A stretch of 64,000 nucleotides of DNA from Pseudophaeomoniella oleicola (Eukaryota > Ascomycota > Eurotiomycetes > Phaeomoniellales > Phaeomoniellaceae). Every line of letters starts with the position of its first letter. Within the stretch, counting starts at the first letter, position 1. The stretch is from assembly GCA_003868215.1 (NCBI GenBank), contig QWDQ01000053.1, positions 62,001-126,000 on the forward strand, in the 5' to 3' direction. Under the pieces are notes generated by a model. That model did not search any database, was not told the DNA's origin, and saw nothing but the letters and a program-made list of their open reading frames with translations. Positions 167-25,933 of this stretch are shown one piece after another. The position numbers and the translations under genes were made by a program.

Positions 167-1384
167 ATGCCATCCTCATCATCATCATCATCGTCGTCAT
201 CATGCCAAGTCGTCGTGTTAGGCGGCAACGTTGCAGGCCTCAGCATCTCACACCATTTGCTCCGGAACGTGCTTCCCAACATCTCGGCGGATCCGGCTTT
301 TTCGTATAAGCTCACGCTCGTGACGCCGAACAGCCATGCGTTGTGGAAGCCTGGGGTGCCGCAGGCTTTGGTCGATGAGGGTTTGAAACGGCTCGATGAG
401 CTGTTTTTGCCCGTTGGGGAGGCGTTCGAGAGGTATGGAGAAGAGGTGTTTGAGTTGGTGAGGGGGAAGGCGTGTGCTGTTGATGAGGAGGGTAGAAAAA
501 TCACGGTGCAGTCTATGGATTCTGGGGATCTGAGGAGAGAAGTGGAAGTGAGCTACGATGCTCTGGTCATCGCGACGGGGACTGAGTCACCGTCACCCCT
601 TTGGACGATTCATAATGGCCACGACGATACGGCTCAGGCTATATTGAGCTTGAGACAGTCACTCAAAACAGCCAAGACGGTACTCATCGCAGGCGGCGGT
701 GCTGCCGGAGTGGAGTCGGCTGGGTTCATAGCCCATCACTGCCCTCAAGGGAAGGAAATCACTCTCCTCTCAGGCTCCGATCGTCTCCTGCCAAGGAAGA
801 TCAGACCTGCCTTGGCAGCAGAAGCTGAAGGTCAATTGGCAAAGCTGGGCGTTCAGGTCAGGCATAATGTACGCGTCAAGTCCGCAAAGACGACAGAGAA
901 AGGGGTCGGATTCGCTTCTACTCTGCTTGGTCTATCCGACAACACATCGAGAGAGGTCGATCTCTACATCGATGCCACCGGTGCCAAGCCCAACACTTCC
1001 TTCGCCCCCCGCTCTTGGCTTACGGATATGTCTTACATCGACACGGACGAGAAGACTCTCCGTGTTAAAGGCTCCAATGGGGGCTTCGTCTACTGCATTG
1101 GCGACGTCTCATCCTACTCTACGCACAGCATTTTTGAATCCACCGATCCCGTCCGACCTCTCGGCTTCTCCCTGTGGGAAGATCTCAAACGGCCCGACGC
1201 AAGACGTGTCAAGGCGGCCCAGTACCATCCGGACCGCCGAGAGTTCCACGTCGTGCCCATCGGCGGTGGAGGCGTTGGCGTCGTGAAAGGGTGGCGGCTA
1301 CCGAAAATGATGGTTTGGATCGGTAAGGGACGGACATACCTGCAACAATTGTTTAGACCGCTTGTGTATGGCGATGCGTATTGA
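167..1384 (+). CDS. AIF/NDH-2-like FAD-dependent oxidoreductase
   Basis: Single-exon gene of 405 aa. A flavoprotein of the AIF/AIFM2 (FSP1)-like and type II NADH dehydrogenase superfamily, expected to pass electrons from NAD(P)H through FAD to a quinone or similar acceptor. Seen: an N-terminal FAD-binding beta-alpha-beta segment VVVLGGNVAGLS (about residues 15-26), the ALVIATGTESP strand, a second dinucleotide fold VLIAGGGAAGVES (about 172-184) and the late motif LYIDATGAKPN (about 266-276). No clear C-terminal membrane helix. I chose the ATG at 167, the first in frame; the frame is open further upstream but without ATG. Residues 3-12 are a run of serines from a TCA/TCG microsatellite, so the true start could vary. 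Substrate and location cannot be deduced; AIFM2-like is the nearest family and specific function is uncertain. Confidence 0.85.
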   Translation: MPSSSSSSSSSSCQVVVLGGNVAGLSISHHLLRNVLPNISADPAFSYKLTLVTPNSHALWKPGVPQALVDEGLKRLDELFLPVGEAFERYGEEVFELVRGKACAVDEEGRKITVQSMDSGDLRREVEVSYDALVIATGTESPSPLWTIHNGHDDTAQAILSLRQSLKTAKTVLIAGGGAAGVESAGFIAHHCPQGKEITLLSGSDRLLPRKIRPALAAEAEGQLAKLGVQVRHNVRVKSAKTTEKGVGFASTLLGLSDNTSREVDLYIDATGAKPNTSFAPRSWLTDMSYIDTDEKTLRVKGSNGGFVYCIGDVSSYSTHSIFESTDPVRPLGFSLWEDLKRPDARRVKAAQYHPDRREFHVVPIGGGGVGVVKGWRLPKMMVWIGKGRTYLQQLFRPLVYGDAY

Positions 1385-3710: not shown

Positions 3711-6700
3711 ATGGTTGATCCCAACGGTGGCCCTGTCGTCGTCGAAGATGACCACGACCACCACGATCAACGGGACCAGGCCGTGCACCACCGGCTACGG
3801 GCCAAGTCTACCGTCATGCACCTCAAGAAAATCCTCGTCGCCAACCGAGGTGAAATCCCCATTCGAATCTTCCGAACCGCCCACGAATTATCCCTACAGA
3901 CCGTCGCCGTCTACAGTCACGAAGACCGTCTGAGCATGCATCGCCAAAAGGCTGACGAGGCCTACGTCATCGGCAAGCGGGGACAATATACCCCGGTCGG
4001 AGCATACCTCGCAGGGGAAGAGATAGTCAAGATCGCAAAACAACACGGCGTCCAGATGATACATCCCGGCTACGGGTTCCTTTCAGAGAATGCCGAGTTT
4101 GCAAGAAAAGTCGAAGAGGCCGGCATCATTTTCGTGGGACCCACCCCGGAGACCATCGACGCTCTCGGGGACAAGGTCTCGGCGCGACGATTGGCTATCA
4201 AGTGCGAGGTACCAGTTGTACCCGGTACTGAGGGCCCGGTCGCCAAGTTCGAAGAGGTCAAGGCTTTCACGGACCAGTACGGCTTCCCGATCATCATCAA
4301 GGCTGCATTTGGCGGTGGTGGTCGTGGAATGAGAGTGGTCAGAGATCAAGCATCTCTCAAGGACTCCTTCGAGAGAGCGACGTCTGAGGCCAAGTCTGCC
4401 TTCGGGAACGGCACTGTTTTTGTCGAGCGTTTCCTGGACAAGCCCAAACACATCGAGGTTCAACTGTTGGGTGATAACCACGGAAATATTGTTCACCTTT
4501 ACGAACGAGATTGCAGTGTTCAGCGCCGACACCAAAAGGTCGTGGAACTGGCCCCGGCCAAGAACCTCCCGCGCGAGACACGGGACCAGATTCTGGCTGA
4601 TGCCGTCAAGCTTGCGAAGTCGGTCGACTACCGCAACGCGGGTACAGCGGAGTTCTTGGTGGACCAACAGAACCGATACTACTTCATCGAAATCAACCCC
4701 CGCATTCAGGTTGAGCATACGATCACAGAAGAAATTACCGGCATTGATATTGTCGCTGCACAAATCCAGATTGCCGCCGGCGCATCACTCGAGCAGCTCG
4801 GTCTCACGCAAGACCGCATCACGATCAAGGGTTTTGCTGTCCAATGTCGTATTACTACCGAAGACCCATCGACAGGCTTCTCACCAGATACTGGAAAGAT
4901 CGAGGTCTATCGTTCAGCCGGCGGTAATGGTGTCCGTCTTGATGGTGGTAACGGCTTCGCTGGAGCGGTCATCACACGTAAGTTATATTTCCTTCCTTTT
5001 CGTTACCATCTGTCCTTGACATTTACTGACTCCCCTCTGAAGCTCACTATGACTCCATGTTGGTCAAATGTACTTGCCATGGTTCGACCTACGAGATTGC
5101 GCGCCGAAAGATGGTGCGTGCTCTGGTTGAATTCCGGATCCGTGGTGTCAAGACCAACATCCCATTCTTGATTTCACTTCTCACGCATCCGACCTTCATC
5201 GACGGAACTTGCTGGACAACCTTCATTGATGATACCCCGGAGCTTTTCTCCTTGATTGGCGGTCAGAACCGTGCACAAAAGCTGCTTGCTTACCTGGGTG
5301 ATATGGCGGTCAACGGCAGTAGCATCAAGGGTCAAATTGGCGAGTCCAAGTTCAAAGGTGACATTATCATGCCTACCTTGACCGACCACGACGACAAGCC
5401 TATAGATACGAGCGAACCATGCACGAAGGGCTGGAAAGAAATCATCGATAAGGAAGGCCCGGAAGGATTTGCTAAAGCCGTTCGTGCCTACAAAGGGTGT
5501 CTCATCATGGATACAACGTGGCGTGATGCACATCAGTCGCTTCTGGCCACTCGAGTCAGGACTGTTGATATGTTGAACATTGCCAAGGAGACGAGCTATG
5601 CATTAAGCAATGCGTGGGCTTTGGAGTGCTGGGGTGGTGCAACATTTGATGTTGCTATGCGTTTCCTCTATGAAGATCCATGGGACCGATTGAGGAAGAT
5701 GAGGAATCTGGTACCAAACGTCCCCCTCCAGATGTTGCTCCGCGGTGCCAATGGTGTCGCTTACTCCTCGCTGCCTGATAATGCCATCTACCATTTCTGT
5801 ATGCAGGCGAAGAAAGCGGGAGTCGATATCTTCCGCGTATTCGATGCCCTCAACGATATCGACCAGCTCGAGGTAGGTATGAGAGCTGTCCAAAAGGCCG
5901 GTGGCGTGATCGAAGCTACCTTGTGCTATTCCGGGGATATGTTGAACCCTAAGAAGAAATACAACCTCGAATACTACATGGATTTGGTCGACAAAATTGT
6001 CAAGATTGGCACCCACACTCTCGGAATCAAGGATATGGCTGGTGTGCTGAAGCCGAAGGCTGCCACGCTTCTGGTGGGAAGTATCCGCAAGAAGTATCCT
6101 GATCTGCCAATCCACGTCCACACCCACGACTCCGCAGGTACGGGCGTAGCATCCTTGGTTGCTTGCGCCCAAGCTGGTGCAGATGCTGTCGATGCCGCCA
6201 CAGACAGCATGTCTGGCATGACTTCTCAACCCAGCATTGGTGCTGTCGTTGCCTCTTTGGAAGGTAGCGAATTCGACACCCACTTGAATCCTCACCATCT
6301 CAGACAGATTGATACCTACTGGGCTCAGCTTCGGCTAATGTACTCGCCATTCGAAGCCGGTTTGACCGGTCCAGATCCTGGTGAGTACCTTCCTTCTTTC
6401 TTCGTTCTCTTCCCCTGCGTTTCTCTTTACCCCTTCCCTTTCGATTGCGGTCGGATTACCTTGGGTAACCCGGCTTTGATCAAATAAGCTGGAATGAAGT
6501 AACAAGGCCACTGGTGCTTTGCTCGATCGACCTGGGATAACACAACAGGGCCACTGGACTTTTTGGATACTCCCTCCACCGTTTGCTATCCCTTCGTTCC
6601 TTCCTCTACTCCTTCTCCTCTGCATTCCTCTTTGCCCCTTCCCTTTGGATTCTGGTTGGACATCCTGTCGGTCAAAATGCCTTCTCTTCTTTCTGGAACA

Positions 6701-8981
6701 CGACTGCTCCCGGATAGCTGTGTCGACGCCCCATTGCCCACTCGAAAGCTTCACGTTCATTGGGATCGCTTGCGGATAAGATGGCACCCCGGACAATCGA
6801 CGTTGTCGTTTCTTGGGCCATCTGGCTTTGCTGGACTGTGCTCTCTCTTACCATTCCTGTTTTGAAGAACCCGGACTTTGTTGGCTTTTTCCCTACACCA
6901 CGCAAACTGAAACAGCTCGCATTGGGCTCGAGTCTCGAATTTGCCCCGGGCCTCTTGGATATTATCCAGTCTAAGGTCCCGCCAACGATAGGTTTCTTCA
7001 AAAGCCTACCGCTGCATATCGAGAAGATCTGGGCCATCTATGTCATAGTGCTTGAGAAAGCAGACTGCCGGCCTAGGACATATGTTGGCAGTGCTACAGA
7101 AAAGACAAATGGCTTCATCTATAGGCATGCCCAATACAGAAATGCCACGGTTTTGCCGGTTTTTGTGGAAAAGGCTCTAAAGGAAGGATATACCATTTCC
7201 CACATTTGACTCCTCTGCTGGACTGCTATCCCTACAGCTGTAGAGAGAGTTCCCCTTCGAGCCCTCTTTCTTGGCCTCGAAACCGTCTTCGCTCTCTATT
7301 TTTGGACTATGGTATCCCGCAAAAAAGACTACTATATGCCCAGAATCTGCCCCTGGTCAATCGACATCCTCGAATATGACGGCTGTTGCAACCACTTCTC
7401 CATAAACGAAGGCATACGTGACTCTGATAAATTCACTGCTAAGAATCTCACCGCTGAGGAAATCGAGGAGATCATCCTACTTGATCTTGCGAAGCTTCGA
7501 GAGCAAAGGCGTGGCTACGGGACAAGATGGGCTGCAAACGGCGGGAAAGAGAAGATAGCAACTGCCAGAAAGGGGTTGCGAAAGAATAATTTGGCTTCCA
7601 AGAGGTACTTTTGTGGCATCTGCAACGTCAATTGTGGCCATCAGACCGAGCTCAACGCCCACAGACGCACCCAGAGGCATAGGGACAAAGCTGCTGGCAC
7701 CGGCAAAATTCTCAAGAAACCTGGGGACAAAAGACTCACGGACAAAAATGTTGCTACACGCAGGTTTTACTGCAACCCTTGCGATCATGCCTATCCTTCG
7801 CAAGCTGACCTCACCAAACATCTCAGGACACCAAAGCACTCCAGGATCGTGTCGGAATTGACGTCGTCGATTTCGACCAAGCTGGACTAATACCGGACTA
7901 CTGGATATCTTGGATACTCACTCAAATTTTAAATGGCAACTGCTAACTTTTATCATAAAGATGTATATTCTCACGAAATTCCTGGAGGCCAGCTCACGAA
8001 CCTCATCTTCCAAGCCTCTCAGCTCGGATTGGGAGAGCGGTGGGCACATACCAAACTGGCATACGAACAGGCAAACGACCTGCTTGGAGACATTGTCAAG
8101 GTCACACCTACCTCCAAGGTGGTGGGTGATCTGGCCCAGTTTATGGTATCTAACAACCTCGACTATAACGCTGTGCTCGAGAAGGCAGAACATCTGGATT
8201 TCCCTGCATCGGTTTTGGAGTTCTTCGAAGGTCTGATGGGTCAACCATACGGCGGTTTCCCAGAGCCACTTCGCACTCAAGCGCTTCGTGGTCGCAGAAA
8301 GATGGATAAGCGACCTGGCCTCTACCTTGAACCTGTTGATTTCGAGGCCAAGAAGAAGGAACTCACCGAGAAGTATGGCAAGATCACTGAATACGATCTT
8401 GCCAGCTACGTCATGTACCCCAAGGTGTTTGAAGATTACCGCAAATTCATTGACCAATACGGTGACTTGTCTGTTCTCCCTACGAGATACTTCCTGAACA
8501 AGCCTCAGATCGGCGAGGAGTTCCAGGTGGAATTGGAGAAGGGTAAGGTCTTGATCCTGAAGCTCATGGCCATCGGACCGCTGTCGGAGCAGACGGGCCA
8601 ACGCGACGTCTTCTACGAGATGAACGGAGAGATGCGCCAAGTGACGGTCGACGACAACAAGGCGGCGGTAGAGAACACTAGCCGTCCCAAGGCCGATAGC
8701 CATGACAGCAGCCAGGTTGGAGCCCCCATGAGTGGTGTGGTTGTCGAAGTTCGTGTCAAGGACGGAGGCGATGTCAAGAAGGGCGATCCAATCGCTGTGC
8801 TTAGTGCCATGAAAATGGTAAGTCTAGCCCTGAAATGCGCTTCGTTGTAAATCAGTACTAATCGGTCGTTGTTTAGGAAATGGTTATCAGTGCGCCACAT
8901 GCTGGCCACATCGACAGCCTGCAGGTCAAGGAAGGCGATTCGGTGGATGGATCTGACTTGATCTGTAAAATCGTCAAATAG
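3711..8981 (+). CDS. pyc: Pyruvate carboxylase
   Basis: Carboxylates pyruvate to oxaloacetate with ATP and bicarbonate (anaplerosis; cytosolic in most fungi, and no targeting peptide is seen). Model: join(3711..4977,5043..6380,7961..8817,8877..8981), 1188 aa, the usual family length. Order: biotin carboxylase domain starting at [16 protein letters not shown] (about residue 39) with an ATP-grasp region; carboxyltransferase domain including [16 protein letters not shown]; pyruvate carboxylase conserved domain; C-terminal biotinyl domain with AMKMEM, the biotin lysine being K1153. All three introns are GT-AG: 4978-5042 (65 bp), 6381-7960 (1,580 bp) and 8818-8876 (59 bp). The junctions restore [22 protein letters not shown] and SAMKMEMVISAP, as expected for the family. 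Intron 2 is oversized and carries a nuclease gene, described separately. Confidence 0.97.
6381..7960 (+). mobile_element. 1.58-kb spliceosomal intron carrying a GIY-YIG homing-nuclease-like gene
   Basis: Second intron of pyruvate carboxylase. The donor is GTGAGT at 6381, a branch-point motif TGCTAAC lies at 7941-7947, and the acceptor CATAAAG ends at 7960, 14 bp downstream, so all spliceosomal signals are canonical. It splits the Asp codon of [14 protein letters not shown] in phase 1. Its neighbours in the same gene are 65 and 59 bp. The extra length is mostly a same-strand nuclease gene at 6781-7890. The 5' part (6391-6660) has internal imperfect duplications: 6415-6455 matches 6620-6660 at 34 of 41, and 6501-6520 matches 6544-6563. 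A 24-bp imperfect repeat (20 of 24) flanks the nuclease gene at 6553-6576 and 7900-7923. There is no group I or II intron core that I can recognise, and no intein motif. Mobility is inferred from the cargo, not shown. Confidence 0.85.
6781..7890 (+). pseudogene. GIY-YIG nuclease with two C2H2 zinc fingers, one in-frame stop
   Basis: A 369-codon frame starts at the ATG at 6781 and ends at the TAA at 7888-7890, interrupted once by TGA at 7207-7209 (codon 143). The frame is otherwise open and the reading continues sensibly across the stop. Order: a hydrophobic, tryptophan-rich N-terminus (about residues 7-37); the GIY-YIG core, with AIY at 85-87, YVG at 101-103 and an Arg at 115 in YRHAQY; a conserved-looking block [17 protein letters not shown] (about 189-205); then two fingers of spacing C-x2-C-x12-H-x5-H, beginning at codons 278 and 331. 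GIY-YIG enzymes include intron homing endonucleases; zinc fingers are plausible DNA-targeting modules. The gene lies wholly inside a pyruvate carboxylase intron on the same strand. It may be recently inactivated, or the TGA (followed by C) may be read through at low level. Assignment to GIY-YIG is strong; biological role is inferred. Confidence 0.85.
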
Positions 8982-23943: not shown

Positions 23944-25824
23944 GGCGCTTTTCTTTTTTGGAAACAGGGAATGAAATAGTGAGTTCTTTTCTCTACGGAC
24001 TTGGAACTCGGCAGAAAGACGAATATGTGGAAATATCAAAGGGTTTTGCTTGAGTATAGCCAGGTTATTTATCATTCTTCTATTCGCACAAAATCATGAG
24101 GCATTTCGCATATTGCCCAGCGCGTCTCTCTATCGAGTCTCATGCTGACAATGAGCAACTGACAATGGCCTTTATGCTTCTTCTGTGTTTGATCTTGTCT
24201 CAGGTAACGCGAAACGAAAAATTGAGACACAGCTTAGCATCGGAGAACAAGAAACGAAAACAATTCTCGAAAGCTGGGCACGATATGGGCAGGTTAGTAA
24301 CACAAGCCTCCTCTCGGTTGTGCTTGAGGTTGTCGCGGTCAACAGAGGATCATAAGTAGAGCTGTTTGACCGCGGAGAGGCGAAAGCACGAGACAGTTGC
24401 TTGTTGTTGTTACCCCTGAATGACCACTGGAAACTTGTAAGAAGCGGGAATAACAGTCTCACTAGTATACCCTTCTATAACAGCGCTTACTGTTCAGGTT
24501 CTTTTCATCTTGTCATTCTTCGCATCAACTGTACTTCCCTTGTCGCTGGAAGTACTCTCTACCCCATTTTCTTCTCTTCGCTCCTCTCCTCGATCGTTCG
24601 GATCCCGCGCCGTTCTTTCCGCTTCTCCCTTGGGTGTTCGATGCTGCAAGAACCGATCATTCGCGGCTCGAGCCCATATTTTTTTCATTCCCCTCTTTGC
24701 CGCTCGCTGTCCTTTTCTTACGTCACGAATGAGTTGGATTGATATAGAGGAAGCTCTCAGCTTGTAATGAGCCATTTCAGGACCAACGTCAGTAATGACA
24801 GTATAACAAGATCTTATCTTAGATTTTGGTTCTCAGAGAGCCGGTGCGTACGTGCATACAGGACGGAAAGTGGTCGTTGGGGAGCAAGTAACTAGAGAGA
24901 GCGTGTTTGCGTTTAAACAGAGGGTTAGAATTTGCAAAGAATGCTTTGTCAATAGTTTGGGCCGCTTCACCACATAGACACGTTTGCAGCCTCAGCAGCT
25001 AGCAGAAGTCCGAGGAATCGGCCACGAATCTGGACCAGCATATCATAAGATAGCATCTAATATATCGCAGCGTTATCAAGCTCTCTCCCCCACTGCAGCA
25101 GCTCAAAGAGGGCGAAACATCATAGGGGTGCCGTTCATGGAACTTTATAAAGGGGGCTAGACGATCCAAACCGGAAACCGTTCGTGAGTGAACCGTTGTT
25201 TGCTTTACTGGTAAGTCTGCACTTCATTCGGCGAAGTTCGGTTCACCACTTCCTGTAGAGCAATTTTTCGTTTCCCATTGTATAGCTTGGTGTGATGGTG
25301 CAAATCAACCAGACTGAGAGATCCAGCTCATTGATATGCAAATCACGCATTGTGTATAGTATTTGAAGCAGCAAGACTGGCTAGGTATCAATTGAATTAG
25401 GGACGGCAAACCATTCTCCTTCTTGTCAGAGGTAGAAGTTCCTGGTTGGGGATTTGGCACCAGAGAGCAAAGTCTATCTCACAATCTGATGACAGGTATC
25501 ATCAGGTCAGCATCGAAAACAGCGTAGGATGTAATCCCCGTATCGTTATTGAAAGCAGCAGGATGTTACCAGCTACTAATACTGAGATGTTGATGAGTGT
25601 GATGTTGCATACCTACATTAGGTAGTTAAATGAATGCCAAGCTCATATAATCAATGGTATTCTTTGACTAAATGTACCGGGCTTTCAGCCAGTAGGATCT
25701 TGACGCTAATACACTATTACAAGCAGACCCTCGAAATAGACCTTACAAAAGAGGAAAAAAGAAAAATCTCTGCAACCTCCTCAACAAGGCTGAACTTATT
25801 CTGCAACAAGCCAAAAAAGAAATT
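23944..25824. other. Intergenic region, gene-poor
   Basis: No convincing gene on either strand. A short minus-strand frame from 24775 begins MAHYKLRASSISIQLIRD and meets a GTAAGA donor, but no downstream exon is evident. The last bases contain the T-run that probably ends tRNA-His transcription. Confidence 0.4.
25813..25818 (-). terminator. RNA polymerase III terminator of tRNA-His
   Basis: A run of six T on the minus strand begins 6 nt after the tRNA 3' end (AATTTCTTTTTTGG), the usual form of a pol III stop. Confidence 0.7.
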
Positions 25825-25933
25825 GCGGACACCAGGAATCGAACCTGGATCTACACGGAAACGTTGTTGCTGGCTATCAAGTGATTGATAGGTAGACCAC
25901 AACGTGTCGTACTGACCATTATACTATGTCCGC
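25825..25933 (-). tRNA. tRNA-His: tRNA-His (GTG) with a 38-nt intron
   Basis: The minus strand folds into a complete cloverleaf: acceptor GCGGACA pairing with TGTCCGC, D arm GTA...TAC, anticodon stem ACACG pairing with CGTGT, loop TTGTGGC with anticodon GTG (25900-25898), variable loop AGAT, and T arm CCAGG-TTCGATT-CCTGG. The intron lies after position 37, the normal eukaryotic site, at 25859-25896; it can form a CTATCAA/TTGATAG hairpin. CCA is not encoded, and the extra 5' G of tRNA-His is normally added after transcription. Confidence 0.95.

Follow-up and report, generated by a model that had tools for sequence, protein, structure and literature searches.

How nuclear genomes gain introns is a long-standing open question, and the second intron of the pyruvate carboxylase (PYC) gene of the ascomycete Pseudophaeomoniella oleicola may bear on it. 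This 1.58-kb intron lies in a stretch of 64,000 nucleotides (contig QWDQ01000053.1, positions 62,001 to 126,000 of the forward strand; hereafter the window) and holds a broken frame resembling a GIY-YIG endonuclease with C2H2 zinc fingers. We judge it slightly better than an even call that this is a decayed nuclear spliceosomal homing intron together with its GIY-YIG and C2H2 homing-endonuclease gene. From the sequence it is established that the splice boundaries restore the host protein, that the nuclease-like frame belongs to a family, that species differ in whether the PYC site holds an intron, and that the intron is built of tandem units. Location in conserved genes is established directly for PYC, and through annotated proteins for DED1 and SSB1.

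In the route proposed here, the GT-AG intron would be removed by the spliceosome, and the insert would thereby be hidden from the host gene. An intact nuclease would use its zinc fingers to recognise the coding sequence flanking the insertion site, which is highly conserved, and would cut alleles in which the intron, or its nuclease-bearing version, is absent; repair from the occupied allele would then copy the intron in. The nuclease of P. oleicola would later have been killed by a nonsense mutation, as expected after fixation of such an element. We infer an active, target-specific nuclease, homing, splicing at the RNA level and an origin of the tandem structure in repair. As one position in one gene exists both empty and occupied, gain and loss of an intron can be measured there, and with hosts that can be named (Lachnellula, Pyrenophora, Fusarium) such a fungal family would make the homing-intron idea directly testable.

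The host gene and its second intron

The assembly comprises 26.1 Mb in 112 contigs, and the gene content of the window is fungal. The PYC gene spans positions 3711-8981 of the window on the plus strand, as do all features described below unless another strand is given, and consists of four exons (3711-4977, 5043-6380, 7961-8817 and 8877-8981) separated by introns of 65, 1580 and 59 nt. Its spliced translation runs to 1188 residues without interruption. Exon 2 ends in ...GLTGPDP plus the G of a split codon, its last base, in the context ...CCTG, being 6380; exon 3 opens with AT GTA TAT. Intron 2 (6381-7960, phase 1) accordingly falls within a codon, and the original prediction that its excision restores PYC proved exact to the coordinate.

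The ends of the intron, which had also been predicted to be spliceosomal, bear this out. The donor GTGAGT occupies 6381-6386, the branch-point-like octamer CTGCTAAC lies at 7940-7947, and the region from the octamer through the 3' splice site (7940-7960) closes with the acceptor AAAG. No Rfam group I or group II intron model matched in the window at its gathering score, and the sole Rfam match at E ≤5 within 6300-8050 was to an unrelated long non-coding RNA model (E 3.2). Given these boundaries, the octamer and the Rfam result, intron 2 looks spliceosomal.

The nuclease-like gene

Inside the intron, and on the strand of PYC, a frame of 369 codons extends from 6781 to 7890 and ends in a TAA stop at 7888-7890; it was identified from the frame listing and from 28 homologues. 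The 1.1-kb same-strand gene that had been predicted is thus present, but not fully open, since translation meets one in-frame TGA at 7207-7209, inside the nuclease core. When the bases of the frame were shuffled, the mean number of stops was 17 and the minimum 7, with none of 2000 shuffles having one or none. Since shuffled frames have at least seven stops against one here, the frame looks like a recently broken gene rather than a random frame. Aligned relatives carry a residue at the stretch of the TGA. A small intron removing this codon was considered and rejected by inspection, as the relatives align continuously through the stretch.

Enzymes of the GIY-YIG superfamily are recognised by the GIY and YIG tyrosines, a downstream arginine and a glutamate, set in a core of beta-beta-alpha-alpha-beta-alpha order. 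At E ≤0.01, 28 proteins are homologous to the product of the frame, and the family has the catalytic residues of this superfamily together with C2H2 fingers. In all 24 aligned rows Y86, Y100, G102 and E166 are invariant, and R114 is present in at least 90%, P0020 being without the motif arginine. In a trimmed alignment of 15 sequences, chosen by hand from 30 and leaving P0020 outside, the Tyr, Tyr, Gly, Arg and Glu are invariant in all 15 rows, among them the insert from Pyrenophora teres described below. The core, whose limits are approximate (7027-7308), was placed by this alignment and by the strand and helix order predicted for the relative P0003, which may fit that of a GIY-YIG core. Downstream lie two C2H2-type zinc fingers, the first at 7612-7680 (Pfam zf-met and zf-C2H2_jaz) and the second at 7771-7839, where Pfam zf-C2H2 matches the C-terminal piece at E 4.9e-5, just under the curated Pfam cut-off.

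Comparisons of the core gave I-TevI and Slx1 as weak best matches. The profile A4 placed I-TevI first of 24 at E 0.21, and an excinuclease-C model matched one of 11 rows at E 0.28. The rows listed in a second look were mostly zinc fingers, and a search of PHROGs gave nothing useful. The GIY-YIG label is based on the motif residues and the predicted fold, formal homology scores being weak. Of the GIY-YIG and zinc-finger product that had been predicted, the motif residues and the Pfam C2H2 matches are found, but a match to a GIY-YIG model of Pfam or NCBIfam is not.

Relatives in DED1, SSB1 and the same genome

A search for long proteins (about 660-2098 residues) sharing words with the frame gave two, each annotated as a single protein. 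P0030 is the DED1 helicase of Lachnellula arida (Leotiomycetes), in which the insert occupies residues 323-772, between IER and GCDLLVATPGRL, and no host residue is missing in comparison with the DED1 of P. oleicola. P0031, from P. teres (Dothideomycetes), is SSB1, a ribosome-associated Hsp70, and in it the domain lies between KKYSK and SGDARALRR. In both, the residues past the border are, by inspection, compatible with a GTATG donor, and we infer that the inserts are introns swallowed by gene models. Besides PYC, relatives of the frame are thus placed in conserved genes of two named classes. As the search finds only same-strand fused models, the figure of two of two for conserved genes comes from a biased sample. 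Among the homologues, two from Fusarium are annotated as proteins in their own right, and scans of viral and prokaryote contigs gave no relatives with DNA context.

The corresponding sites were compared in P. oleicola itself. DED1 has no intron at the position of the L. arida insert, and the P. teres site, or a position very near it, is occupied in SSB1 by an ordinary 87-nt intron that splits the codon G|AT. Upstream of the window, DED1 (C62:55481-57662) comes within about 8 kb of PYC, which may be chance. SSB1 has another intron of about 400 nt (L014, about 714-1133, minus strand) with, by eye, an apparent GC-AG donor.

Compared with its own genome, the PYC intron gave one match, itself, such repeat counts being lower bounds. 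The family is also present as two broken fragments, oppositely oriented, that lie at C48:53184-54480 with long frames of other genes on either side; two further matches are weak (E 0.051 and 0.64). To the question whether homologues lie in introns of conserved genes, the answer is thus divided: the DED1 and SSB1 proteins hold the domain, but the relic pair is outside any long gene frame, and therefore the family is not confined to introns. Each piece of the pair (L007:3828-5439) has an internal stop, and the stretch that holds the pair has a GC content of 42-44%, against 53-54% in the flanks.

Occupancy of the site across fungi

Alignment of the PYC locus across species, which had been suggested as a check, revealed versions with and without the intron. 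The survey covered the 120 best-listed of 6003 matches, scoring having been confined to the 8000 candidates with the most words in common; P0032, which runs through but is a tandem artefact, was left out, and 119 were examined. Among these, 107 run straight through the site, and 12 break at it or within a few bases. In nine of the 12 (two from one species) the letter pattern fits the phase-1 position found here, and in three (P0067, P0070 and P0071) it fits, by inspection, positions a few bases off. By their letters, different fungi thus have introns near the site at up to three places only a few bases from one another, perhaps through repeated gain or slippage at one spot.

Because the through-readers include transcripts and spliced annotations, they were called genomic by a rule of thumb, namely reading past AMKM in letters other than EM or ET. 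By this rule 71 of the 107 were judged genomic (P0054 doubtfully), 29 read AMKM as spliced, and seven stop short of it or go no further. P0035 was not counted as an empty allele, as it may be a transcript. A tree of 84 tips (the 71 without and 12 with an intron, plus the gene studied here) requires at least nine changes of intron state, a number as low as this being enough in 5 of 1000 label shuffles; presence of the intron is thus patchy yet clustered.

Of the relatives examined, the nearest is P0038, at a distance of 0.14 and with a node support of 0.71. It is without intron 2 and reads into intron 3, and for the latter reason is taken to be genomic DNA. Its frame starts at the same methionine as the exon-2 frame of P. 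oleicola, which suggests that it has intron 1. Five further proteins, P0033-P0037, are 99.8-100% identical, and two of them are named Paecilomyces variotii; P0033 and P0034 break at the site, whereas the annotated P0036 and P0037 read through it, so that an intron is apparently present there in P. variotii. For P0057 an intron length of about 122 nt could be estimated by eye, as its tail shows the following exon in another reading frame. The tail of P0083 runs, by eye, for 157 codons without a readable next exon, which suggests a longer intron. An E-to-D change in the codon that the intron splits was considered as a scar of homing and dropped, as P. variotii apparently has an intron there and keeps E.

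Tandem structure of the intron

The intron is a partial tandem repeat, in which a nuclease-less unit of the order A-C precedes a unit of the order A-nuclease-C. By local alignment, repeat A starts unit 1 at 6388-6466 and unit 2 at 6591-6672 (score 71; shuffles mean 21.9, standard deviation 3.3; 0 of 1000 dinucleotide shuffles as high). Repeat C ends unit 1 at 6545-6576 and unit 2 at 7892-7923, just 3' of the stop of the frame (score 36; shuffles mean 16.9, standard deviation 2.7; 0 of 1000 as high). The copies differ at about one fifth of positions; therefore the tandem event was not recent, or the two versions differed beforehand.

In one reading, nuclease-less and nuclease-bearing versions of one intron would have been fused by faulty repair, as homing into an occupied site could leave behind. 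A plain tandem duplication, with the insertion coming afterwards, may instead have produced the same order. When repeat C was extended into the last codons of the nuclease, the joined alignment was matched by 0 of 2000 shuffles; those codons alone were matched by 224 of 2000, which is not significant. Were repeat C to include these codons, unit 1 might be a remnant of an older nuclease copy, and this was considered. The leader of unit 2 is not similar to the 78-nt filler of unit 1 (1055 of 2000 shuffles scored as high).

Weighing the explanations

Several observations count against a homing intron. The 369-codon copy is broken by the TGA at 7207-7209. The 28 homologues are known as proteins, as are the inserts in DED1 and SSB1, and the search that found these two is able to detect same-strand fused gene models alone. 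The nuclease assignment itself is met by the absence of any GIY-YIG model match in Pfam and NCBIfam, by a first core profile (A3) that ranked I-TevI fourth of 5 at E 0.74, and by a Foldseek search of the PDB that gave nothing below E 0.8 and no useful match. Moreover, introns occur at family sites with no sign of a nuclease: in P0057, in P. variotii, beside whose PYC-site intron no sign of an intact nuclease was seen among the 28 homologues, and, as the 87-nt intron, in the SSB1 of P. oleicola. The relic pair of the same genome lies outside long gene frames. The selfish unit of intron and nuclease envisaged in the original prediction therefore draws strength from the homologues inside conserved DED1 and SSB1, and from a PYC site that is variable between species and empty in P0038, but the nuclease-sign-free introns, the broken copy and the relic pair tell against it.

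Because the PYC site of some relatives holds an intron without sign of a nuclease, the nuclease may have entered a pre-existing intron rather than brought it, and the introns of this kind at the PYC and SSB1 sites mean that an intron need not travel with a nuclease. The rival that follows, unlikely though hardly far-fetched, is that the nuclease gene alone is mobile, with older spliceosomal introns, not themselves gained by homing, as harmless landing sites, and that it cuts the nuclease-less intron or a site spanning its edge. The order A-C, A-nuclease-C fits an encounter between two versions of one intron, with and without the nuclease. This rival is harder to reconcile with a DED1 site without an intron in P. 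oleicola, with the empty site in the nearest relative, or with the patchiness of the PYC-site intron on the tree. On whether intron and nuclease travelled together, DED1 and P0038 lean for, while SSB1 and P. variotii lean to a nuclease entering existing introns. Quite improbable, in our view, is an ordinary nested gene, in which a free-standing zinc-finger nuclease gene landed once in an intron by chance and is no mobile unit. The relic pair, the separately annotated Fusarium homologues and the broken state of the copy would suit such a gene, but the sole two long proteins found are highly conserved housekeeping genes of other classes with the domain between intact host halves, and three independent chance landings in such genes seem unlikely, though the search sees fused models alone. 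Less probable still is a domain with a function other than that of a nuclease, such as a regulator that binds DNA or RNA, its likeness to the motif being convergent; the missing model matches and the Foldseek result are in its favour, whereas the invariant GIY and YIG tyrosines and glutamate, the nearly invariant arginine, a predicted strand and helix order that may fit, and I-TevI and Slx1 as weak best core matches speak against it.

A homing intron in PYC could also be set in a wider frame, which we regard as a real possibility that falls short of probable. Ascomycete nuclear genomes would host a spliceosomal homing-intron lineage of their own, its GIY-YIG and C2H2 nucleases would cut empty sites of highly conserved housekeeping genes and thereby install new introns through DNA repair, and the ordinary short introns at the PYC and SSB1 sites would be remains of such elements after loss of the nuclease. 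Homing would then be a way in which nuclear introns are gained again and again at the same fixed places.

Comparison with known systems

The closest counterparts are the spliceosomal homing introns, or shintrons, of mirusviruses, of which the available text of the report describes 334, with 132 of the GIY-YIG type (PMC12768974, Nat Microbiol, November 2025). According to that text they are GT-AG introns without group I or group II signatures, with nuclease genes inside and many in conserved genes; their homing is proposed there, not demonstrated (PMC12768974). In the same text the authors saw no shintron equivalent in eukaryotic genomes and state that an association of nucleases with spliceosomal introns was unobserved before their work (PMC12768974). 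It is the sole report of nuclease genes in spliceosomal introns found in our literature search, and others may exist, since most subscription papers and bioRxiv were outside its coverage. The likeness extends to the spliceosomal boundaries, the lack of a group I or II signature, the nested endonuclease-like gene and conserved hosts (PYC and, as probable introns, DED1 and SSB1), as well as to occupied and empty PYC sites, here between species. The difference, as far as the available text goes, is that theirs are in virus genomes, whereas here the hosts are ascomycete nuclear housekeeping genes, the protein has C2H2 fingers and the copy is broken. On this evidence, the fungal case extends the mirusvirus kind to cellular nuclear genes.

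The GIY-YIG homing endonucleases of group I introns, such as I-TevI and its fungal mitochondrial kin, reside in introns that self-splice. The frame shares with them the catalytic residues, a place within an intron and a conserved host gene, but its intron has spliceosomal-looking ends and no group I or II match. Introners, or introner-like elements, are nuclear spliceosomal introns that spread as DNA and are multicopy within a genome; the PYC intron is likewise nuclear and looks spliceosomal, but has one own-genome match and carries a nuclease-like gene. Penelope-like elements join a reverse transcriptase to a GIY-YIG domain, and the scan of the 1580-nt intron, to which it was confined, showed no second frame of reverse-transcriptase size. 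Finally, in nuclear ribosomal DNA, group I introns with homing genes are known in which spliceosomal introns interrupt the homing gene, according to the available text (PMC9548176). The nuclear location, the homing gene in an intron and the involvement of spliceosomal introns are alike; as described in that text, however, the mobile intron there is group I, whereas here the spliceosomal intron itself is the carrier.

Elsewhere in the window, a 110-nt Rfam tRNA match that was not reported by ARAGORN lies at 25824-25933 on the minus strand, perhaps with an intron of its own.
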